DNA of 10,418 nt from Dehalococcoidales bacterium. Its GTDB lineage: Bacteria; Chloroflexota; Dehalococcoidia; Dehalococcoidales; RBG-16-60-22. The stretch spans positions 1 through 10,418 of the forward strand of contig JAUVXN010000040.1 in NCBI GenBank assembly GCA_030603605.1, in the 5' to 3' direction. The number at the start of each line of letters is the position of its first letter. Position 1 is the stretch's first letter. The notes beneath the pieces were generated by a model. The model worked only from the letters and a program-made list of their open reading frames with translations. It did not search any database and was not told where the DNA came from. Positions 154 to 10,228 of this stretch are shown piece after piece. Made by a program: the position numbers and the translations under genes.

Positions 154-1347
154 TTATTCAACTGGCTCCGTCCCGTAGATTACCACCGTGTGCTGGGCAC
201 AGGCACCGCTTAGATTATGCGCCAGGGCTAACTTGGGATTTTTCGCCTGATTTATAGCCCTCCCTTGAAGTTGCTTGCACAGCTCAAGGGACTGGCGGGC
301 CCCGGAGGCACCGAAGGGATGTCCACAGCTAATAAGGCCACCATCGGTATTTATGGGACGTTCGCCATCAATATTGAGGGCACCTGAGGCGACATAAGCG
401 CCGCCTTCTCCCTTTTTGCAGAAACCAAGCTCCTCAACCTCTATAATCTGGGATATGGTGAAGCAATCATGTGTCTGGGCAACATCTATATCGGCGGGAC
501 TGACCTGAGCATTCTTGTAAGCCACCTCAGCCGCTTTCTTCAGATGAGGCCACTCGGCAAGGGTTTCACCCGGCCAGCCTGCCGACATGCTATGGGTGGC
601 ATGCTGCCCCGTGCCACGGATGTAGACCAGCGGTCGGTCAGACAGGTCCTTGGCTCTCTCTTCCGAGGCAATGATAACCGCTGAGGCACCATCGGATAGG
701 GGGCAACAGTCAAAAAGACCGAATGGGTCAGCAATTAGCCTGGCACCCAATGCCTCTTCCATGCTGAGCGTCCTCGGGTCAAAGTGCGCTTTGGGATTGG
801 TCGAGCCATAATTGTAATTGGCTACGGAAACACGCGCCATTTGCTCCTTGGTTGTCCCGTAGCGCTTCATATGCATTTTGGCAATCATAGCAAAAAACGG
901 CGGAGGTACGCCTAACCCCATGGCAGAGTCCCAGTCATGGTCATTGACCGCCAATTCTGTATAGTTCGTTTCCCACCTCTGGGGCAGATAGCTCTTCTCA
1001 GCGCCGGTCACCAGAACTACCTCAGAAATACCGCTTTCTACCAGTCCCTTGGCCAGAATAATCCCTGTGTTGGAGCCAGCGCACAGGGTATCCAACCTAG
1101 TACAAATTGAGGTCGGTTTTAATCCCAATCTGTGAGCCACAAGAGGCGCTGTGTTAAGGGCGTTGGAATGTCTCCCCGCCTTTGTGGAACAAAAGAGGAG
1201 ACCATCGATGTCTCCGGGCTTCAGGGCTGGAATGTCATCAGAGCAGGCTTTGGCTGCTTCCTGAACCATATCGAATAAGGTTGCCTGTCTTACGCCAAAT
1301 TTACTCACTCCCCCGCCAACTATTACAGCATTCGTCCTCTTTGCCAT
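154..1347 (-). CDS. Thiolase family protein (SCP2/archaeal-type acyl-CoA acetyltransferase)
   Basis: A 397-residue thiolase-fold enzyme, the usual length for the family. These enzymes carry out Claisen condensation or thiolytic cleavage of acyl-CoA in the cytoplasm. The nucleophilic cysteine is Cys89 in LDTLCAGSN. The second active-site block is THDCFT (His293), and the third is CGHPFGASGA (His343). The last glycine-rich block reads NLSGACAQH, as in SCP2/archaeal thiolases rather than classical FadA enzymes. The ATG is preceded by AGGAGG (1355-1360) at 7 nt. Downstream, after 30 nt, lies the probable DUF35 partner; upstream, after 147 nt, is the AOR gene on the same strand. In archaea such thiolase-DUF35 pairs make acetoacetyl-CoA; bacterial relatives can act in fatty-acid or side-chain degradation. 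The residues favour an active enzyme, but the substrate cannot be read from the sequence. Confidence 0.93.
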   Translation of the reverse strand: MAKRTNAVIVGGGVSKFGVRQATLFDMVQEAAKACSDDIPALKPGDIDGLLFCSTKAGRHSNALNTAPLVAHRLGLKPTSICTRLDTLCAGSNTGIILAKGLVESGISEVVLVTGAEKSYLPQRWETNYTELAVNDHDWDSAMGLGVPPPFFAMIAKMHMKRYGTTKEQMARVSVANYNYGSTNPKAHFDPRTLSMEEALGARLIADPFGLFDCCPLSDGASAVIIASEERAKDLSDRPLVYIRGTGQHATHSMSAGWPGETLAEWPHLKKAAEVAYKNAQVSPADIDVAQTHDCFTISQIIEVEELGFCKKGEGGAYVASGALNIDGERPINTDGGLISCGHPFGASGARQSLELCKQLQGRAINQAKNPKLALAHNLSGACAQHTVVIYGTEPVE

Positions 1348-1494: not shown

Positions 1495-3339
1495 TTACAA
1501 CCCCAATTCTTTTAGTTTAGCCGCAGTCGGGTTTCCATTTTTATCCCAGCCGCGCGCCTCATAGTATTCATCGAGCATGGCATCGAGGTCCGCCTGACTG
1601 ATAAGCTGCCCGGCAGAAGCCCCCTCTTTAATCGGCTCAGTCATTAGACGTTTGGGGAATGTGTCATCTTTGCGACTAAATCCTTCTCTCCCATTGAAAA
1701 GCCGGGCAACATTATTTACCCTCTCACCAACTTGCTGGATTTGTTCTGCGGTAAAGGGAATTCCTGTAGCCGCTGTTACCAAATCGGCGATTGTCTGACA
1801 GGCGGCGCCGACTATACCCATATCCAGAATAAAAGCACACAGCGTGGAGCAATCACAGGTTACGCAGCGGACATCCTGGTTCCATTTGGTCAGCTTTCCT
1901 TTCCCTTTTATGGCAAATCTATCAACCTCTTCGGGGATTGGAATACCAAAAATTTCTTGGAAGGCATAGCCGCGGTTGTGGTCGGCCCCGTTATAAGCGG
2001 TGGCATAATTCAGACCGTGCGCCTTGGCTCCCCTAACATCATAAGCCGGTAACTCCAGACCTTTAATATTCATGGCATACTTATCCGAGCCTTTACCTAT
2101 TTTCTCCGCTGCCTTCTTGCTACCCTGGCACAGGATGGCTCCCAAGCCCTCTTGATAAGCCATCTGCCGCAGTAACTCAATCATTGCTTCATGATTGCCG
2201 AACTTAAGCTCAAGCCCGCCGGTATCCTGCTTTGTCAGTGTTCCCCTTTCATAGAGTTCCATGGCAAAGCCTATGGTAACACCGGCTGACATCGTATCTA
2301 TGCCATATTCATCACAGAGCCGGTCTCCGGCAATGATAGCCGGCAGGTAATCCACCCCCACGGTACTACCCAGCGAATAGGTCGTCTCGAATTCAGGTCC
2401 TTCGCTTAGGAAACCGGCGTAGGGGCCACTGGTGACCATTTTGACTTGGGAGCAACCCACCGGGCAGTCAGCGCAGGCAACCTTCATAATCTTCATTGCC
2501 TGCTGAGCATCAAGGCCGATTCCCGGCACCATATTGACTTCTCCTGTCGCTGACCAGTTCTTGATAGCTAACATGCCCTTAGCCGTCATTGTATCAACCA
2601 CCGAAGGAGTACCTGTCTTGCTGAACCCCGGATAGAGCACGGGGCTGTCTTTCATACCCTTGTTCATTATTCGCTGTGCCTCTCTGAACTTAGCCGGGTC
2701 AGCTATTGCCGGTCTATGTCCTCCGAGCACGGCGATAGCTTTCAGGTTCTTGGAGCCCATCACCGCCCCCAACCCCTTTCTGCCCGCCGCACGCCGTTCA
2801 TTGATGATGCTGGCTATGGGGACAAGCTTCTCGCCAGCCGGACCGATGCAGGCAACCCGGAAATTCTGGTCCCGGAGTTCATCCTTTATGAAAAGTTGGG
2901 TGTCAGTGGTCTCCACGCCCCTGAGTTTTTCCGCATTCCTGAAGCTAACCTTACCCCCCTTAATGGCTACATAGGTTAGCTTTTCGGCTCTACCCTCCAC
3001 AATTATCATGTCATAACCCGCCCTCTTCATCTCAACCGGGAAATACCCCCCGCTCAAAGCGCAGGCTATGGTGTTGGTAAGTGGGGACTTGGCAGCGACT
3101 GCCATTCTGCTGGTACAGAAAACCCCAGTAGCTGTCAGCGGACCTACGGCAAAGATTAGCTTATTTTCTCTATCCAGGGGAGGAGTCCCCGGTTTCAGCT
3201 CATCATACAGGTATTTAAAAGCAAAACCGACGCCGCCCAGATAATTCCTGGCTAATTCTTCAGAGACCGCCTCCTCTTTCGTAGACTGGTTAGTTAAGTC
3301 TAGCCTCAGTATTTTGCCCGTATAGCCGCCATTATACAT
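1495..3339 (-). CDS. Aldehyde:ferredoxin oxidoreductase family tungsto/molybdoenzyme (AOR)
   Basis: A 614-residue cytoplasmic enzyme. AORs interconvert aldehydes and carboxylates, or related substrates, using a bis-pyranopterin tungsten or molybdenum cofactor and one [4Fe-4S] cluster, with ferredoxin as electron carrier. The N-terminal domain (about 1-210) has the family start YTGKILRLDLTN, the conserved NYLGGVGFA stretch (32-40) and ERRAAGRKGLGAVMGSKNLK (181-200). The cluster ligands are visible as CADCPVGC (Cys289, Cys292, Cys296), with the fourth in DCSTLC (496-501, Cys501), matching the DxxGLC position of the Pyrococcus enzyme. The first pterin-contact motif appears as DTMSAG (348-353). 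Length and motif spacing match full-length family members. Two further cysteines (492, 495) and Cys497 crowd around the fourth ligand. The ATG has a strong Shine-Dalgarno sequence (AAGGAGGAG, 3347-3355) at 7 nt. The MoaD-like gene upstream supports a pterin-dependent role. The actual substrate is unknown. Confidence 0.95.
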   Translation of the reverse strand: MYNGGYTGKILRLDLTNQSTKEEAVSEELARNYLGGVGFAFKYLYDELKPGTPPLDRENKLIFAVGPLTATGVFCTSRMAVAAKSPLTNTIACALSGGYFPVEMKRAGYDMIIVEGRAEKLTYVAIKGGKVSFRNAEKLRGVETTDTQLFIKDELRDQNFRVACIGPAGEKLVPIASIINERRAAGRKGLGAVMGSKNLKAIAVLGGHRPAIADPAKFREAQRIMNKGMKDSPVLYPGFSKTGTPSVVDTMTAKGMLAIKNWSATGEVNMVPGIGLDAQQAMKIMKVACADCPVGCSQVKMVTSGPYAGFLSEGPEFETTYSLGSTVGVDYLPAIIAGDRLCDEYGIDTMSAGVTIGFAMELYERGTLTKQDTGGLELKFGNHEAMIELLRQMAYQEGLGAILCQGSKKAAEKIGKGSDKYAMNIKGLELPAYDVRGAKAHGLNYATAYNGADHNRGYAFQEIFGIPIPEEVDRFAIKGKGKLTKWNQDVRCVTCDCSTLCAFILDMGIVGAACQTIADLVTAATGIPFTAEQIQQVGERVNNVARLFNGREGFSRKDDTFPKRLMTEPIKEGASAGQLISQADLDAMLDEYYEARGWDKNGNPTAAKLKELGL

Positions 3340-3439: not shown

Positions 3440-3736
3440 TTAGTCACCAGCGATAACACGTACTATGTAAAGCTCATCCCCATTGTCAACCGGCTTAGCC
3501 AACTCTTCAGGGTATGCACTCTTCAGATTGACGGAGACAAAAATATGACCTAACAATTTACCATCTTTATCAAAGAGCACTGGCTTAATCTTTGGGAATT
3601 GCTTAACTAGGCCATCAAGGCACTCACCGATTGTACTTCCGCTAACTTCTACCATATTCCGGTCGTTAGTGAACTGCTGCAAACTTGAGTAAAGGTGTAC
3701 CTTTGTGCTCATTTCAGGGCAGGGGCTGTTTGTCAA
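3440..3736 (-). CDS. MoaD/ThiS-like ubiquitin-fold sulfur-carrier protein with atypical C-terminus
   Basis: A 98-residue beta-grasp protein. MoaD proteins donate sulfur, as a C-terminal thiocarboxylate on Gly-Gly, for molybdopterin synthesis. The pattern fits: VHLYSSLQQF, then VEVSGSTIGECLDGLVKQFP, DGKLLGHIFVSVN (58-70) and a final DNGDELYIVRVIAG. The protein ends Ala-Gly-Asp (codons GCT GGT GAC, then TAA at 3440-3442), so the usual terminal Gly-Gly is missing. The TTG start at 3734-3736 is preferred because AGGAG (3748-3752) lies 11 nt upstream. The internal ATG at 3710-3712 (Met9) has no ribosome-binding site but would give a more typical N-terminus. It lies 100 nt upstream of the AOR gene on the same strand; MoaD-like genes next to AORs are common and are thought to serve cofactor assembly. 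Family confident, function uncertain because of the tail. Confidence 0.85.
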   Translation of the reverse strand: MTNSPCPEMSTKVHLYSSLQQFTNDRNMVEVSGSTIGECLDGLVKQFPKIKPVLFDKDGKLLGHIFVSVNLKSAYPEELAKPVDNGDELYIVRVIAGD

Positions 3737-4513: not shown

Positions 4514-4540
4514 CTGACTTCCCGTGTGTCATGGTATAAT
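4514..4540 (+). promoter_or_regulatory. Extended -10 promoter for mutS2
   Basis: A perfect TATAAT (4535-4540) is preceded by TG at 4532-4533, giving an extended -10 element (TGGTATAAT). A weak -35 containing TGAC (CTGACT, 4514-4519) sits 15 nt upstream. Transcription would start near 4547, about 20 nt before the proposed mutS2 start. It would drive mutS2 and the gene after it. Confidence 0.6.
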
Positions 4541-4565
4541 GCATTTGCCGCAAGAGAGAGGTGCC

Positions 4566-6950
4566 TTGGATAGTAAAAGCCTGGAAATGCTTGATTTTGG
4601 GCAGATATGTGAAATAGTGGCCGGGTTTACCTCATTTTCCGCCAGCCGCGAATTAGCCCTTAATCTGCAACCGCTTTCCGATTACGAACAGATTTTTCTG
4701 CTGCTGAGGCAGTCGGCCGAGGCACGCCACCTCCTCTCGCTGGAGCCCGCCTTCTCTATTGGAGGGGCCCTTGACATTCGAGAAGCGGTAAAGATGGCCG
4801 CGCTGGGCAAGGTTCTTGAACCGCAAGTCCTTCTAGAAATTCAGCAGACTCTGGCTGCCATGTGCCAGCTGCGGGGCAGTCTCGAAAAAATGCCAGAGGA
4901 ATTCCCGTTACTCTGGAATAATGCCAGCGGTATAGTTGAGCTTCGTCAGCTGGAGAAAGACATCGCCAGCTGCCTGGCGCCAAACGGCGAAGTGCTGGAT
5001 AGCGCCTCTCCCCGGCTGGCTGCAGTTAGACGGCAACGGAGACAGGTGCGTCAGCAGTTATTAGACCGGCTGAAGGTCACTATGGAGTCACCTAGAGGAC
5101 GTACGGTAGTCCAGGAACCTATTATTACCGAGCGGGAAGGCAGGTATGTTATTCCCGTCAGGATTGAACATCGCAAAGAAATAAAGGGCATCGTTCACGA
5201 TGTTTCTAACAGCGGAGCTACGGTATTCATCGAGCCGTGGGTGACCGTAGAACTGGGTAACACGCTCCGGGAGTTGGTGGTAGAAGAAAGCCATGAGATC
5301 GAAAGGATTCTGGTAAGCTTAGGTGCTAAAGTGGGAACCCACGAGATTGAAATATCTCAGGGTGTAGCTTTGACAGCTGAGTTAGACCTGGCAGTGGCTA
5401 AGGCAAAGTATGCCAGGAAAGCCAGGGCTACCGAACCTATCCTTACCACATTCAACAAAGACGGGAGCACTCTTGAGGGCAAGCCGGCTCATGTGCTAAG
5501 ACTTGTTGAAGCCAGACACCCATTACTGGCAGAAAAAGCGGTGCCTCTTTCTGTGGAGATAGGGCGAGACTTCTCTATCCTCGTAATTACGGGGCCCAAT
5601 ACCGGCGGTAAGACGGTAGCTCTGAAAACAATTGGCCTGCTCAGTTTAATGGCACAAGCTGGCATACCTATTCCGGCTTCAGCGGAAAGTCGTATTCCCG
5701 TTTTTGATGGCGTATTTGCCGACATTGGCGATGAGCAGAGCATTGAAAAAACACTCTCCACGTTTAGCTGGCACATCGGCAATATCGTACGAATCATTAA
5801 CAGCTCTACCGGAAGGAGTCTTGTACTTCTCGATGAGCTGGGTACGAGTACTGACCCGGCGGAAGGTTCGGCCCTGGCTCGCTCTATTTTGCTCAACTTC
5901 TTATCTCGTGGAACAATAGCCGTAGCCACCACACACTTTAGTGACCTTAAGGCTTTCGCGCATACGACGCCCGGGCTACAAAATGCCTCGCTTGACTTTG
6001 ACCCGGTTACGCTGGCGCCTACCTACCACCTGACAACAGGTATACCTGGCGGCAGTAACGCTCTGGCTACCGCTGCTCGCCTGGGCTTGTCCCCCGATAT
6101 TGTCTCTCGGGCAATAGAGATGCTAACGAGAGGTAGCGAGGAGATGGAGACTCTGCTAGCCAATTTGCTTGAGGAAAAGCATGGAATTGAAGCCCTCCGT
6201 GATGATCTGAAAAGAAAGACAGACGAGGTGGCACGACGGAACATTGAATTAGAAAACGAACGGCGACGGCTGGCGGAGGAAGAAAGAAAGACTATTCAAG
6301 AGAACCGGGACAGGGTTGTCCGTGAGATGGCTGATTTAATTAAGGAAATCCGGCAAGCGGCGTCAGCCTTGCGCAAGGAACAGAACAAGCAGAGGATTGA
6401 GCAGGCCCGGCAGGCGACAGCACTGGCAAAGGAGCGGTTGAAAACGGAGGTATGGCAGCCCAAGATAGGAGAAATCGGTGATGAGGCAGAAAACGAGGGC
6501 GGAATCACTGTAGGCGACATGGTCCGACTGAGAGAAGCAAACCTTGTGGCGACAGTGCTTTCGGTATCAGAAGAGACACAACAGGTTGAAGTCCGGGCCG
6601 GACAGGTAAAGCTCAGACTCGGTCTAAATAGCGTGGAAAAGGTAAAAGTGACCCCGGGTACAGCACCCCCGGAATTCACCCCGGTTAAAAGGCTGGTGAC
6701 GTCGCGGCCGGTTTCGATGGAACTTGACCTGAGGGGGAAACGGGCCGATGAGGTGGAGTGGGCGCTTGACAGCTACCTGAATGCCGCCTCTCTGGCTAAT
6801 TTAAGCGAGGTACGTATTATCCATGGTATTGGCACCGGTGCAGTACGTAAAATCGTCAGAGAGCTGCTGGCCTCTCACCCGCTGGTTAAGTCGTTCCGTC
6901 CCGGGGTGAGTGGCGAAGGTGGCGATGGAGCCACCGTTGTCAGACTATAG
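4566..6950 (+). CDS. mutS2: MutS2 family ATPase with Smr domain (ribosome-collision/recombination factor)
   Basis: A 794-residue protein, full length for MutS2. Order: N-terminal core and lever/clamp region (1-330); ABC-type ATPase with Walker A GPNTGGKT (343-350), DIGDEQSIEKTLSTFSWHI (386-404), Walker B LVLLDELG (419-426) and TTHFSDLKA (455-463); a charged coiled coil (about 522-630); a KOW-like segment (646-695); and a C-terminal Smr domain (from about 717) with LDLRG and HGIGTG (753-758). MutS2 was first described as an inhibitor of recombination; in Bacillus it also splits collided ribosomes and is called RqcU. The TTG at 4566 is chosen because the protein then begins MDSKSLEMLDF, like known MutS2 N-termini, with AGAGAGG just upstream. 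A longer frame from ATG 4524 would begin upstream of the TATAAT box and cannot be in the transcript. The next gene follows after 27 nt. Confidence 0.95.
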   Translation: MDSKSLEMLDFGQICEIVAGFTSFSASRELALNLQPLSDYEQIFLLLRQSAEARHLLSLEPAFSIGGALDIREAVKMAALGKVLEPQVLLEIQQTLAAMCQLRGSLEKMPEEFPLLWNNASGIVELRQLEKDIASCLAPNGEVLDSASPRLAAVRRQRRQVRQQLLDRLKVTMESPRGRTVVQEPIITEREGRYVIPVRIEHRKEIKGIVHDVSNSGATVFIEPWVTVELGNTLRELVVEESHEIERILVSLGAKVGTHEIEISQGVALTAELDLAVAKAKYARKARATEPILTTFNKDGSTLEGKPAHVLRLVEARHPLLAEKAVPLSVEIGRDFSILVITGPNTGGKTVALKTIGLLSLMAQAGIPIPASAESRIPVFDGVFADIGDEQSIEKTLSTFSWHIGNIVRIINSSTGRSLVLLDELGTSTDPAEGSALARSILLNFLSRGTIAVATTHFSDLKAFAHTTPGLQNASLDFDPVTLAPTYHLTTGIPGGSNALATAARLGLSPDIVSRAIEMLTRGSEEMETLLANLLEEKHGIEALRDDLKRKTDEVARRNIELENERRRLAEEERKTIQENRDRVVREMADLIKEIRQAASALRKEQNKQRIEQARQATALAKERLKTEVWQPKIGEIGDEAENEGGITVGDMVRLREANLVATVLSVSEETQQVEVRAGQVKLRLGLNSVEKVKVTPGTAPPEFTPVKRLVTSRPVSMELDLRGKRADEVEWALDSYLNAASLANLSEVRIIHGIGTGAVRKIVRELLASHPLVKSFRPGVSGEGGDGATVVRL

Positions 6951-6977
6951 GTTTCTAGAGCAGAGGCATTTCTTACG

Positions 6978-7736
6978 ATGCTAGTTTCAAAACGGTTCTT
7001 TCTGAGTAGGCTAAGGATGCTAACCTTCCTTACTGAACTGGAGGCAACCAGTGGTCCGGCTGAGTCCTTATACATACCGCCTGGCTTGCCTTTACAAGAG
7101 GTTGGAAATTTACTGAAAAAGGTGCTTGACCCACAAGCCATTCCACCGGAATTAGCCGAACTCGCTGCCGCTTCGAAAACGGGGGCGGTCATTTTTGGGA
7201 GCCCTTCCCAAACGCGTCTGGTTGTGCCACCATTTCCGATAAGGGCAGAATACTTAGCGCGGGGTTATGTTGTTGAGCCGTTGTGTTCTCTGCTCAAACG
7301 TAATTTCAGGGTTGCCTTGATTCTAATACGTTTGGGAGCATATGCCATCGGGCTCTCTGAGGGTGAAAGTCTGGTCACCAGTAAGGTTGGAACCGGGCTT
7401 ATCCACGGGCGACACAAGAAAGGTGGCAGTTCACAGCAGCGATTTCAGAGACACCGAGAAAAGCAGATCGAATATTTTCTGACCCGGGTCTGCGGCCACA
7501 TCCAGGAACGTCTCAAACCTCATGCCTCGACGCTAGACTTCGTAGTTTATGGTGGTGCGCAAACTACAATATTATTGCTGCAAAAGCAGTGTCCCTTTCT
7601 GGCCAAGCTTGAGGGTGCAATCCTGCCACCTCTGCTCGACATACCCGAACCACGTCAGGCGGTACTGGAAAAGGCGGTCAGGCGTGTCTGGTCAAGTAGC
7701 GTAATTGAGTGGCGGGATGATGAAGTTCTAGTCTGA
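6978..7736 (+). CDS. VLRF1-type (Vms1-like) peptidyl-tRNA release factor homologue
   Basis: A 252-residue protein of the eRF1-like/VLRF1 superfamily. The N-terminal part has SLYIPPGLPLQEV (30-42), typical of bacterial eRF1-like proteins. The signature is GRHKKGGSSQQRFQRHREKQ (144-163), the glycine-rich catalytic loop plus the RFxRxRE helix of the actinobacterial/chloroflexi VLRF1 group. Gln153 or Gln154 is the likely counterpart of the catalytic glutamine of yeast Vms1. The C-terminal strand DFVVYGGAQTT (187-197) and the closing VRRVWSSSVIEW complete the domain. Eukaryotic Vms1/ANKZF1 cuts the nascent chain from tRNA on split 60S subunits; bacterial members are poorly characterised. It lies 27 nt after mutS2, so probably in the same transcript. 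ATG 6978 has a weak AGAGG upstream; ATG 7017 (Met14) is possible but would cut into the first helix. Family confident, cellular role inferred. Confidence 0.85.
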   Translation: MLVSKRFFLSRLRMLTFLTELEATSGPAESLYIPPGLPLQEVGNLLKKVLDPQAIPPELAELAAASKTGAVIFGSPSQTRLVVPPFPIRAEYLARGYVVEPLCSLLKRNFRVALILIRLGAYAIGLSEGESLVTSKVGTGLIHGRHKKGGSSQQRFQRHREKQIEYFLTRVCGHIQERLKPHASTLDFVVYGGAQTTILLLQKQCPFLAKLEGAILPPLLDIPEPRQAVLEKAVRRVWSSSVIEWRDDEVLV

Positions 7737-7739
7737 AAG

Positions 7740-7773
7740 TTGCACAATCCGAGCTGTTGATTGCAAGGTGCAA
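7740..7773. repeat. Hairpin between convergent VLRF1 and arfB genes
   Basis: TTGCAC (7740-7745) and GTGCAA (7768-7773) form an outer 6-bp stem, and AATC/GATT an inner one, around a 9-nt loop with a 5-nt bulge. It begins 4 nt after the VLRF1 stop. The perfect palindrome CTCAATTGAG follows at 7775-7784. There is no T-run, so a terminator role is possible but unproven. Nothing else is seen in the 124-nt gap to arfB. Confidence 0.3.
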
Positions 7774-7860
7774 ACTCAATTGAGCACCGAGCTTGACCAG
7801 GACAGTAACGTTGTGGGCAACCCCGACCTAATTTGGCAAAACGATTTCGGCACCTAGTAG

Positions 7861-8286
7861 TTACTCATTGTAGGGATGGGCAGGCCCCCGTAGGCGTTTA
7901 CTCTCGGCGCCGCGACGCTTGCTCTCTAACCGACGTATCTTTGATGCCAGTGTTGGTCTTGTCTTGCGGCGGATTTTTGGTCTTTGTGCTGCATTGCGAA
8001 TCAACTCCACAAGCCGGTCGGTTGCATCTTCGCGATTCCGTCCCTGGGTACGGAACCGTTGAGCGTTGATAATAAGTATGCCATCTTCGGTAATCCGGTT
8101 ACCAGCCAGCGAAATGAGACGTTTCCGAACTTCCTTGGGCAAGGAGCGTGAGTTAGCGACGTTAAAGCGAAGCTGCACAGCGGTGGCGACTTTGTTGACG
8201 TTCTGCCCACCCGGTCCTGAGGCGCGAACAAAGTACTCTTGGATCTCGCTTTCGTCGATCGTGATGGTGCGGGTTATGTGAATCAT
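7861..8286 (-). CDS. arfB: ArfB (YaeJ/ICT1) alternative ribosome-rescue peptidyl-tRNA hydrolase
   Basis: A 141-residue protein, almost the length of Escherichia coli ArfB (140). ArfB enters ribosomes stalled without a stop codon, places its basic tail in the empty mRNA channel and hydrolyses the peptidyl-tRNA. The GGQ catalytic motif is intact: RASGPGGQNVNKVATAVQLR, with Gly-Gly-Gln at 26-28. The C-terminal tail (about 103-133) is strongly basic (PKIRRKTRP, ASKIRRLESKRR, SKRLRG), as in ArfB and unlike ordinary release factors. ATG 8284-8286 begins MIHITRTITID, the expected start of the domain. Upstream there is only a weak GGGG; a possible TAAACT -10 lies very close, so the mRNA may have little or no leader. 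The gene converges on the VLRF1 gene, 124 nt apart, next to mutS2. Function is well established for the family. Confidence 0.95.
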   Translation of the reverse strand: MIHITRTITIDESEIQEYFVRASGPGGQNVNKVATAVQLRFNVANSRSLPKEVRKRLISLAGNRITEDGILIINAQRFRTQGRNREDATDRLVELIRNAAQRPKIRRKTRPTLASKIRRLESKRRGAESKRLRGPAHPYNE

Positions 8287-8304
8287 GCCCCAAGTTTACA
8301 CTCA

Positions 8305-8363
8305 CGTCACTGGCTTAGGCAAGCTTGGAGAGAGGAGGTAACAACATTGCGCTGCCAGTGACG
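8305..8363. repeat. Perfect 10-bp inverted repeat enclosing an orphan Shine-Dalgarno sequence
   Basis: CGTCACTGGC (8305-8314) and GCCAGTGACG (8354-8363) are exact reverse complements separated by 39 nt. The loop contains AGGAGG (8333-8338), a strong ribosome-binding site. The TTG 8 nt after it opens only four codons before a stop. The right arm ends 1 nt before the ATG of the following gene. The stem could act as an RNA structure that places or hides the ribosome-binding site, or as an operator between arfB and the divergent gene. Confidence 0.5.
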
Positions 8364-8364
8364 G

Positions 8365-8835
8365 ATGTTATCGGAGGTGAGTTCGACGCTTAGAGTATCA
8401 GGCGCTCTGGCAAGCCGTTCTATATGGGACTGGCTTGAGGATAAGCTGGAGAGTGACCCACCAGAAAGTATCGCTCCCGGCGAGTTTGAATCTACTAGAG
8501 ACCTGCTTTTTGGCAATATCCTGCTCGTTGCCGGTGGCCACGAAACCGTGGGATCAGACTTAAGCAAGGAACCGACAGGGGAGGGTGAAGACGTCTTGGT
8601 CGTGGCCTATAGTAATAGTTCGGTTGTATCCCCTTCATCACGGTACATGGCCATGGTAATCGAAGAAGTAAAGAAAAGGCCTGAGTGGGACTCGCTGGTG
8701 TCGGCGGCGTCGAAGCTCGATAGCAAGGAGAGCCAGTCCGATCTCAGGCGTATCGCTCGGGACATGGACCGGGAACTAGTTGCCATTGAGCTGATGTATG
8801 CGTTCCCCGGACGGTGCCAGATATGCCCGGCTTGA
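8365..8835 (+). CDS. Hypothetical acidic protein, family not recognised
   Basis: A 156-residue frame from ATG 8365 to TGA 8833-8835. I do not recognise the family. Visible: an acidic amphipathic N-terminal stretch (WDWLEDKLESDPPES, 21-35), a segment DLLFGNILLVAGGHETVGSD (46-65), a probable beta strand DVLVVAYSNSS (76-86), helical C-terminal half (VIEEVKKRPEW, RRIARDMDRELVAIELMYAF), and a closing Cys-Gln-Ile-Cys-Pro-Ala that places a CxxC two residues from the end. There is no signal peptide or membrane segment. The composition is that of a soluble protein and the frame has no competing open frame of similar quality. The start is uncertain: the only strong Shine-Dalgarno sequence (8333-8338) is 26 nt upstream, inside the inverted repeat; GTG 8377 is in frame. 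It lies between arfB (divergent) and the integrase (31 nt to its start), so it could be cargo of the integrated element. Confidence 0.6.
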   Translation: MLSEVSSTLRVSGALASRSIWDWLEDKLESDPPESIAPGEFESTRDLLFGNILLVAGGHETVGSDLSKEPTGEGEDVLVVAYSNSSVVSPSSRYMAMVIEEVKKRPEWDSLVSAASKLDSKESQSDLRRIARDMDRELVAIELMYAFPGRCQICPA

Positions 8836-8866
8836 ATGTGTTAAAATTCGGTAGGTGTGGCGGATA

Positions 8867-10222
8867 ATGAGAGGACATATCAGGAGACAGTCAAAAAATT
8901 CCTGGGAGATTGTCATCGAAATGCCCAGAGACCCGGCCACGGGAAGACGCCGGCAGCATTTCGAGACGGTCAGGGGGTTAAAAAAAGACGCCGAGCGGCG
9001 TCTGAGGGAACTCATTACCAGTCTCGAGAGGGGCGGCTTTGTCCAGCCGAACCGTATTACACTCGGTGTTTGGCTCAAAAGGTGGCATGAGAGCCATGTA
9101 GTACCGAACCTGAAGGCGCAGACGGCCGATAGCTACCTTTCGGAAATACGTATCCACCTGGTTCCCAGCCTGGGGATGGTACCCCTTCAAAAGCTCACCC
9201 CGCAGCACCTGCAGGACTACTACGCCCGTGCCCTGCTTAAGGGACGAGTTGACGGCACGGGAGGTCTTTCCGCCTCCACGGTGCGTTATCATCACCGCAT
9301 CATGCACCGGGCACTGAAGCAGGCAGTGAAGATGGGGTATCTGGAACGAAACGTGGCCGAAGCTGTCGATCCGCCACGCGTCCGGCGCCGGGTTATGCCT
9401 ACCATGGCACGGGATGATATTCCCAGGTTCCTGGCAGCGGCCTGGGGTAATTTCTATTATGTAGTATTTTACACCGCCCTATTCACCGGTATGCGGTTGG
9501 GAGAGCTGCTAGGGCTGCGCTGGTGCGACGTCGACCTGAAGCTTGGATATATTTCGGTGGTCCAGGCTCTATACAAACGTGCCGGTGTCTGTAAGGTAGA
9601 TGAACCCAAGAGCCGCAGCAGCCGGCGCCGTATCACACTGCCGGCGTCCCTTGTGGAGATACTGTTGCAGCACCGGGTAGGACAGGAGGCCCAGGGTATC
9701 CTACTCGGGAGACCGCTACAGGGAACCGACCTGGTCTTTGCCTATCCGGGTAATAAGCCCCTTGATCCAAGTACGGTAAATCACGCTTTCGCTAGAGTCC
9801 TTAAGGAAGCAGGGCTGCCCCGCATCCGCTTCCATGATCTGAGACACACCCATGCCACCCTGATGCTCGTTGCCGGGGTTAATCCCAAGGTAGTCAGCGA
9901 GCGCTTAGGGCACTCGAGTGTCGCCTTCACCATGGATGTCTACAGCCACGTTCTGCCCAGTCTCCAGGAAAGTGCTGCCGAGCGTTTCGACCAGCTTATT
10001 TTTTATACGACCCCGGACAAAAATAATGTTGTCAAAACGCCGAAGCTGGCTCAGGTACAAAACGGGGAGGGTATGTTGGCAAACGGGAGACTGGATGTTG
10101 GGAAAATGTTGGGAAAGGCCTCTCAAATAGTTGACATAACTGGTGGAATTGAGTGTGAGCCGCACAGGAATCGAACCTGTAACCTGCTGATTAAGAGTCA
10201 GCTGCTCTGCCAGTTGAGCTAG
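8867..10222 (+). CDS. Tyrosine recombinase/phage-type integrase
   Basis: A 451-residue site-specific recombinase. An arm-site DNA-binding domain comes first (SWEIVIEMPRDPATGRRRQH near residues 12-31), then the SAM-like core-binding domain (about 65-165), then the catalytic domain. All catalytic residues are visible: Arg210 in TGMRLGELLGLRW, Lys248 in PKSRSS, His323 and Arg326 in HDLRHTH, His349 in RLGHSS and the nucleophile Tyr359 in DVYSHV. ATG 8867 is preferred because AGGTG (8853-8857) lies 9 nt upstream and homologues begin MRGHIR; a GTG at 8855 would add four residues. About 90 residues follow the active tyrosine, more than usual, and the last 22 codons with the stop (10220-10222) are antisense to tRNA-Lys. 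This places the gene at the edge of an element integrated at that tRNA. It looks intact. Confidence 0.95.
   Translation: MRGHIRRQSKNSWEIVIEMPRDPATGRRRQHFETVRGLKKDAERRLRELITSLERGGFVQPNRITLGVWLKRWHESHVVPNLKAQTADSYLSEIRIHLVPSLGMVPLQKLTPQHLQDYYARALLKGRVDGTGGLSASTVRYHHRIMHRALKQAVKMGYLERNVAEAVDPPRVRRRVMPTMARDDIPRFLAAAWGNFYYVVFYTALFTGMRLGELLGLRWCDVDLKLGYISVVQALYKRAGVCKVDEPKSRSSRRRITLPASLVEILLQHRVGQEAQGILLGRPLQGTDLVFAYPGNKPLDPSTVNHAFARVLKEAGLPRIRFHDLRHTHATLMLVAGVNPKVVSERLGHSSVAFTMDVYSHVLPSLQESAAERFDQLIFYTTPDKNNVVKTPKLAQVQNGEGMLANGRLDVGKMLGKASQIVDITGGIECEPHRNRTCNLLIKSQLLCQLS
10156..10222. other. Probable integration (att) site in the 3' part of tRNA-Lys
   Basis: Elements carrying tyrosine recombinases often integrate at tRNA 3' ends and rebuild the tRNA with their own copy. 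Here the integrase is next to the 3' end of tRNA-Lys and reads into it. The exact core is unknown; it must lie within the shared tRNA part. No second copy of the tRNA 3' segment was found elsewhere in the window. Confidence 0.4.
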
Positions 10223-10228
10223 CGGCCC
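10156..10228 (-). tRNA. trnK: tRNA-Lys, anticodon CTT
   Basis: A complete 73-nt cloverleaf on the minus strand. Acceptor stem GGGCCGC pairs with GCGGCTC (one G-T pair); D arm GCTC-AACTGGCA-GAGC; anticodon arm GCTGA-CTCTTAA-TCAGC with anticodon CTT; variable loop AGGTT; T arm ACAGG-TTCGATT-CCTGT; discriminator A. The 3' CCA is not encoded (CAC follows). The integrase reading frame runs 67 nt into the gene from its 3' end, on the opposite strand, without breaking the cloverleaf, so the tRNA is expected to work. Confidence 0.97.

Follow-up and report, generated by a model that had tools for sequence, protein, structure and literature searches.

Why does a gene for a Vms1-like release-factor protein stand directly behind the gene of a ribosome-splitting ATPase in a member of the Dehalococcoidales? 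The question is raised by positions 1 to 10,418 of contig JAUVXN010000040.1 (assembly GCA_030603605.1). In this stretch of 10,418 nucleotides (nt), hereafter the window, mutS2 (also named rqcU) is followed by a gene of the VLRF1 kind and faced by arfB. The original prediction read these three genes as one ribosome-rescue island. We found that the adjacency of mutS2 and VLRF1 stands far above that of any other neighbour in the same loci, and that the ArfB neighbourhood is not conserved. From the sequences, we predict that mutS2 and VLRF1 are the two genes of one operon, serving a short ribosome quality-control (RQC) route that is independent of RqcH, a reading to which we give an even chance.

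The mutS2 and VLRF1 genes of the window

The features of the pair are listed below, numbered from the first letter of the window.

4566..6950, plus strand: mutS2 (rqcU), encoding a ribosome-splitting ATPase; MSSS (SH3/KOW-like) and Smr domains present; frame open over 4524-6950
5592..5615, plus strand: Walker A motif of MutS2, GPNTGGKT, read in the sequence and aligned with the G340 site mutated in PMC10897456
5826..5843, plus strand: Walker B motif of MutS2, LLDELG, read in the sequence and aligned with E416 of the same study
6723..6839, plus strand: Smr motifs LDLRG (6723-6737) and IIHGIGTG (6816-6839), from Pfam, the 7qv3 alignment and the sequence
6951..6977, plus strand: spacer of 27 nt between mutS2 and VLRF1, read in the sequence
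6978..7736, plus strand: acVLRF1-family protein (Vms1-like release-factor domain) of 252 amino acids (aa), with an ATG start and matches to PF18859 and NF041024
7410..7445, plus strand: loop RHKKGGSSQQRF with the GGxSQ motif of the acVLRF-1 family, read in the sequence

The MutS2 protein matched the curated model TIGR01069 over its full length (800.5 bits, with the cut-off at 400) and displayed MutS V, MSSS and Smr domains (Pfam PF00488, PF20297 and PF01713). Its probable start is the TTG at 4566, which is preceded in the sequence by AGAGAGGTG. Residues 17-808 could be aligned end to end with the MutS2 chain of 7qv3, which we take to be the Bacillus subtilis protein. Residues 340, 416 and 743 of that chain are G, E and H, in agreement with the B. 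subtilis numbering used in PMC10897456, where mutants of G340 (Walker A), E416 (Walker B) and H743 (Smr) are described together with an 'ALA' mutant, taken here to be that of the DLR motif. The mutated residues have counterparts in the window MutS2, and Walker A, Walker B and both Smr motifs are intact.

VLRF1 begins with an ATG at 6978, and no terminator-like site was found in the 27-nt spacer that separates it from mutS2. The protein scored above the cut-offs of both PF18859 (109.3 bits against 27.1) and, barely, NF041024 (126.1 bits against 125). In these respects the original prediction, a MutS2 with intact ATPase and Smr motifs and a VLRF1-type gene 27 nt past it, is borne out.

Conservation of the pair in Chloroflexota

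VLRF1 loci were collected by a scan at one genome per species, in which 178 stretches matched the search patterns, 90 encoded a relative and the best 80 were kept. These stem from 78 assemblies, two of which give two loci each. The record titles of all 80 loci name Chloroflexota/Chloroflexi or Dehalococcoidia/Dehalococcoidales. Our claims of linkage cover Chloroflexota; none is made for Actinomycetota, for which the plasmid collection yielded one hit, a Nonomuraea record of 11.8 Mb.

A co-directional mutS2 was found upstream of VLRF1 in 69 of the 80 loci, which is 69 of the 76 that are testable, the contig ending too soon in the other four (L005, L013, L049 and L070). The gap between the genes, measured up to the aligned VLRF1 start, has a median of 34 nt over the 69 linked loci and is at most 150 nt in 63 of them. 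Longer gaps, up to a maximum of 1477 nt, occur in L020, L040, L048, L050, L068 and L073. Seven loci (L009, L038, L063, L064, L067, L072 and L080) have no mutS2 in the available upstream DNA; in L072 that DNA is 397 nt long, and in the other six it is longer. The remaining neighbours of VLRF1 provide a control within the same loci: a convergent Sir2-like gene, second in frequency, is present in 12 of the 80, and among the 36 loci that reach 13 kb every neighbour family other than MutS2 occurs in six at most. Conservation of the adjacency across Chloroflexota, which had been set as a check, holds in many Dehalococcoidia genomes.

The nearest relative of the window is L001, from a Dehalococcoidales metagenome-assembled genome (MAG). 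DNA identity is 94.8% over window positions 4525-7751 and L001 positions 5546-8774, that is, over mutS2 plus VLRF1, and no DNA-level match of the rest of the 10.4-kb window to the 16.8-kb L001 locus was found. Between these two loci the ratio of nonsynonymous to synonymous substitution rates (dN/dS, NG86) of MutS2 is 0.32 and that of VLRF1 0.18; five further pairs gave 0.15-0.28 for VLRF1.

Minor observations were also made in these loci. The Sir2-like gene, whose family name was checked on one of its 12 loci, overlaps VLRF1 by a few bases in some of them (for example L025:4631-5332). Two distinct mutS2-VLRF1 pairs, L002 and L021, come from a single MAG (CSMAG_2505) and could be paralogues or reflect a mixed bin; L024 and L056 also come from one assembly.

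Linkage in an even sample of the class

The scan used patterns taken from close relatives, so an evenly drawn sample of 99 genomes was added, from the class to which G022 belongs, a genome titled Dehalococcoidales in which L045 lies. PF18859 was above its cut-off in 36 of the 99, and in 28 of those it exceeded 60 bits, the line that we chose for true VLRF1. Matches that passed the cut-off without reaching 60 bits, in frames of 348-584 aa, we classed as other relatives of release factors. Only matches of this weaker kind are present in 8 of the 36 class genomes and in 14 of the 19 phylum genomes. In 14 of the 28 class genomes the coordinates place VLRF1 downstream of MutS2 at a distance of no more than about 1 kb, both genes sharing contig and strand. 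The linked copies that were read (11 of the 14) are 42-60% identical to the VLRF1 of the window, and the copies of the other 14 genomes 29-43%.

MutS2 was above its cut-off in 66 of the 99 class genomes and in 102 of 121 genomes of the phylum; therefore, MutS2 alone is common. It accompanies VLRF1 in 25 of the 28 VLRF1-bearing class genomes, compared with 41 of the 71 others (Fisher p 0.002, ignoring kinship).

We also built a quick maximum-likelihood tree of VLRF1 from 103 rows, comprising the window, the 80 scan loci and, of the 28 further loci L081-L108, the 22 that remained after omission of L105 and of five in which VLRF1 gave no hit. All 76 linked rows fall in a single clade of 87 (SH-aLRT 95), whose other members are 7 unlinked rows and 4 that are untestable. 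Well-supported branches require at least five changes of the linkage label, and many forks are open. The simplest reading is one origin of the linkage and several losses, in a quick tree whose label counts cannot separate gain from loss. Around the unlinked VLRF1 genes, no neighbour family recurs in more than two of 16 loci. The VLRF1 frame of L105 (4603-5349) is interrupted by an in-frame stop at codon 50, due to either a sequencing error or decay.

Could the pair be a relic of common descent, or an operon of convenience, with no pathway in common and with MutS2 acting mainly on DNA? A single origin of the linkage is possible, because all linked copies read fall in one clade, and MutS2 without VLRF1 in 41 of the 66 MutS2-bearing class genomes would also suit such a relic. 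Against it, the other neighbours are scrambled (12 of 80 loci, or six of the 36 longer ones, at best) even though VLRF1 identity to the window drops to 42% in these loci. Moreover, the 94.8% match between the window and L001 stops at the edges of the pair (4525-7751), and both proteins belong to ribosome-directed families. We therefore regard a relic or convenience operon as quite improbable.

Bacterial and archaeal VLRF-1 proteins are described in PMC6514570, the only survey of the family found, as stand-alone and independent of other RQC components, and the linked clade is an exception to that view. No report of a link between VLRF1 and MutS2 was found in open-licence papers, subscription papers and preprints being outside the scope of the search; a paper on YlmH mentions Vms1 and MutS2, each on its own. 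In the same literature no assay of peptidyl-tRNA hydrolysis or tRNA cleavage by an acVLRF1 protein was found.

Family and fold of the VLRF1 protein

The acVLRF-1 family was defined by Burroughs and Aravind in 2019 (PMC6514570). The VLRF1 of the window resembles this family in scoring above both curated cut-offs, in carrying the GGxSQ of the family and in missing the stop-codon-reading stretch, as the same paper says of the family. It is unlike the family in its linkage to mutS2 and in belonging to a clade that often lacks the GGxSQ glutamine.

The predicted model of the protein (pLDDT 93.9) displayed fold matches to aRF1/eRF1 and Vms1. Its 252 aa make up two domains, and the structural matches listed stop at or before residue 245. 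The fold common to VLRF1 and Vms1 spans 178 residues across both domains. The NIKS-containing, stop-codon-reading stretch of aRF1 falls in a gap of the alignment, Ser stands where the GGQ motif has its glutamine, and a third domain is missing. These features set VLRF1 apart from the aRF1/eRF1 termination factors. It has a middle domain related to that of Balon, Pelota and aRF1, but differs from them in having neither the third domain nor the NIKS-containing stretch, and its superposition on them over the whole chain is poor.

A different function was also considered for VLRF1, namely that of a hibernation factor related to Balon, whose position behind mutS2 would be incidental. Balon has three domains, the third serving to bind EF-Tu (PMC10901736), while VLRF1 has two and, taken whole, resembles Vms1 more closely. 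According to the same source, Balon is without a GGQ motif and often lies in stress-response operons; in VLRF1 the Gly-Gly pair is invariant and the gene is linked to a ribosome splitter. A hibernation factor is thus very unlikely.

The likeness to eukaryotic Vms1/ANKZF1 extends beyond the two-domain fold to an arginine four residues before the first glycine of the loop (R145 and G149 in the window, R288 and G292 in yeast; PMC5989216). There are also differences. The eukaryotic VLRF-1 proteins are nearest to bVLRF-1 and not to acVLRF-1 (PMC6514570). Eukaryotic Vms1 works with Rqc2, Ltn1 and Cdc48, and is fully active only with the glutamine of its GxxQ; in the linked clade, by contrast, Ala or Ser can take the place of the GGxSQ glutamine.

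RqcH and other rescue factors

In Bacillus, RqcH acts after MutS2. A search with PF05833 found RqcH above the cut-off in none of the 36 genomes with VLRF1 loci (the search covered 36 of the 78 assemblies) and in none of the 99 class genomes. The same model was above its cut-off in 10 of 14 control genomes, and 59 of the 121 phylum genomes have RqcH. In 5 of the 36 and 29 of the 99 genomes there were matches below the cut-off, each limited to a short segment inside positions 150-256 of the model. Most of them lie in frames of about 270-320 aa, and we take the proteins to be DNA-glycosylase-like. None of the five phylum genomes with a strong VLRF1 (more than 70 bits) has RqcH above the cut-off. 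Meanwhile, it is present in 11 of the 14 phylum genomes with weaker PF18859 matches, and for this reason the absence of RqcH goes with strong VLRF1 only. The RqcH status of the window's own genome is taken from its relatives, as relatives alone were searched.

In comparison with the RQC of B. subtilis (MutS2/RqcU, RqcH, RqcP and Pth), the system displays the same Walker and Smr residues of MutS2, and Pth was above its cut-off in 33 of the 36 genomes with VLRF1 loci. It differs in that the RqcH which accompanies RqcH-dependent RQC in bacteria is above the cut-off in no relative searched (0/36 and 0/99), and in that a Vms1-like gene adjoins mutS2. These results divide the original prediction of a bacterial parallel to the eukaryotic pathway: the link between a splitting factor and a Vms1-like protein is conserved, but the parallel is not a straight one, as no genome tested had the tailing factor RqcH/Rqc2 above the cut-off. 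Among the other rescue factors, tmRNA was above its cut-off in 90 of the 99 class genomes.

Proposed mechanism

MutS2 would first split the stalled ribosome, an activity shown in the literature for the B. subtilis protein. VLRF1, presumably produced together with it, would then enter the empty A site of the 50S subunit, related genomes having no RqcH to add an alanine tail. In its two-domain body VLRF1 has no loop for reading stop codons and no third domain, the part through which proteins of the aRF1 type contact their GTPase, so it should not need the 30S subunit. Once bound, it would place the invariant R...GG.S..RF loop at the peptidyl-transferase centre. In the last step, of which we are least sure, VLRF1 may free the nascent chain from the 50S subunit, which would then be recycled. 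The chemistry could be an aided attack of water on the ester bond, or a cut at the tRNA 3′ end as reported for Vms1. ArfB and tmRNA would act separately, on non-stop 70S ribosomes.

The most likely function of VLRF1 is to clear the 50S-nascent-chain complex made by MutS2, be it through hydrolysis, tRNA cutting or mere displacement. A conserved putative operon that joins a splitting ATPase to a Vms1-like protein, with relatives that lack RqcH, supplies a concrete candidate and makes an ordered in vitro test possible.

The GGxSQ loop and the case against the proposed route

The loop is the part of VLRF1 on which the last step would depend. The window reads GGSSQ, in accordance with the GGxSQ motif published for the acVLRF-1 family (PMC6514570), and its glutamine is Q153. 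R145, G149, G150, S152, R155 and F156 are invariant in an alignment of 75 linked loci. In yeast Vms1, the residues of GxxQ and R288 are needed (PMC5989216).

Several observations weigh against the proposed route. Position 151, which aligns with the glutamine of the aRF1 GGQ, is Ser in 73 of the 75 linked homologues. The GGxSQ glutamine itself, at position 153, is kept in 40 of them and replaced by Ala in 24 and by Ser in 11, and five of the 75 have no Gln at either 148 or 151-154. Linkage, too, is incomplete: 7 of the 76 testable loci are unlinked despite a VLRF1 of the same kind, 14 of the 28 VLRF1-bearing class genomes carry only a diverged, unlinked VLRF1, and 41 of the 66 class genomes with MutS2 have no VLRF1 at all. 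Finally, Pth has been reported to release chains in the RQC of B. subtilis (cited in PMC11317155), and its presence in 33 of 36 genomes means that VLRF1 is no obvious replacement for it.

The main weakness of a simple hydrolase reading is the frequent absence of the GGxSQ glutamine from linked VLRF1, and for this reason we hold our confidence in the proposed route no higher than even. The VLRF1 of the window retains the motif, yet many operon partners of MutS2 do without its glutamine. With Ala or Ser in 35 of the 75 linked homologues, the hydrolase step of the original prediction is not secured.

Outside the linked loci, position 153 is Gln in 14 of 27 unlinked or untestable loci and in 109 of the 120 closest proteins. 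Position 148, just before the Gly-Gly pair, is Gln in 30 of the 75 linked homologues, which have Gln at 153 only in 37 cases, at 148 only in 27, at both in three and at neither in eight. An exchange of the glutamine between these positions was considered and set aside; it is not significant when kinship is allowed for, and well-supported branches hold two independent pairs.

VLRF1 could also be a non-hydrolytic partner of splitting, as Pelota/Dom34 is for ABCE1. It would bind the A site or the freed 50S subunit and assist MutS2 or keep the subunits apart, the peptide being released by Pth. However, domains of the Dom34 N- and C-terminal type (PMC6514570) are reduced or absent in VLRF1, and its two-domain arrangement is that of Vms1. 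The invariant GG.S loop, in turn, suggests that chemistry or a tight placement at the peptidyl-transferase centre has been kept. We consider such a partner unlikely, though it is the strongest of the rivals to the RqcH-independent route of MutS2 and VLRF1.

A bolder version of that route can be put forward tentatively, at clearly less than even probability. In Dehalococcoidia without RqcH, the two proteins may carry out a tail-less RQC in which VLRF1 is the dedicated termination factor after splitting by MutS2. It would often do so without a glutamine of the GGQ or GGxSQ type, perhaps with a Gln moved to the position before Gly-Gly, or by cutting the tRNA instead of the ester bond. The natural variants without the glutamine (GGSSA or GGSSS, as in L017, L034 and L071) offer a direct test of whether proteins of the Vms1 type need it.

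ArfB and the flanks of the window

The other features of the window are as follows.

7861..8286, minus strand: arfB (yaeJ), convergent neighbour, complete, matched by NF006718 and judged to lie outside the system
8365-8835: open reading frame (ORF) of 156 aa with no convincing match in Pfam, NCBIfam or PHROGs
8855-10222, plus strand: tyrosine integrase, its 3′ end overlapping the tRNA-Lys(CTT) gene
10155-10228, minus strand: tRNA-Lys(CTT)
154-1347, minus strand: thiolase-like gene
1495-3339, minus strand: aldehyde ferredoxin oxidoreductase, just downstream of the ThiS-like gene
3440-3736, minus strand: ThiS-like small protein

ArfB scored 185.8 bits against the NF006718 cut-off of 100, and its residues 1-136 match the YaeJ chain of 4v95. 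With GGQ at residues 26-28 and a basic C-terminal tail, it is the complete facing ArfB that had been described. The idea of a single rescue island of three genes draws on their being complete and contiguous in the window. However, ArfB was found next to VLRF1 in none of the 80 scan loci and in none of the 28 further ones, five of which have no VLRF1 hit; many of these loci end early at a contig end. It was above its cut-off in only 7 of the 99 class genomes, and in the three of those seven that carry VLRF1 (G015, G160 and G184) the two genes lie on different contigs. The window arfB, moreover, has close to it an integrase located at a tRNA gene. A three-gene island is therefore highly improbable and that claim falls, so ArfB was rejected as a component of the system.

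The integrase at tRNA-Lys(CTT), the ORF at 8365-8835 and arfB possibly mark the edge of an integrated element. No relative of the integrase was found in the other VLRF1 loci, and no stretch of 12 or more bases of the tRNA gene recurs in the window; a tRNA gene of any kind is present in only 12 loci with VLRF1. An origin of the mutS2-VLRF1 pair as a mobile cassette was considered, since the L001 match does not extend past the pair and the window has an integrase in the vicinity. Yet with no integrase relative elsewhere and no tRNA repeat, this stays an observation.

On the other flank, the ThiS-like protein is 44% identical to that encoded at the far end of L001, and another part of the genome that holds L001 matches the thiolase gene at 83% on the DNA level. 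Directly upstream of mutS2, L001 carries a tRNA-Lys(TTT) followed by an ORF of 102 aa with a weak, sub-threshold match to a phage-integrase N-terminal domain (L001:5078-5557). A tRNA-Lys(TTT) upstream of mutS2 is also present in L035 and L045.

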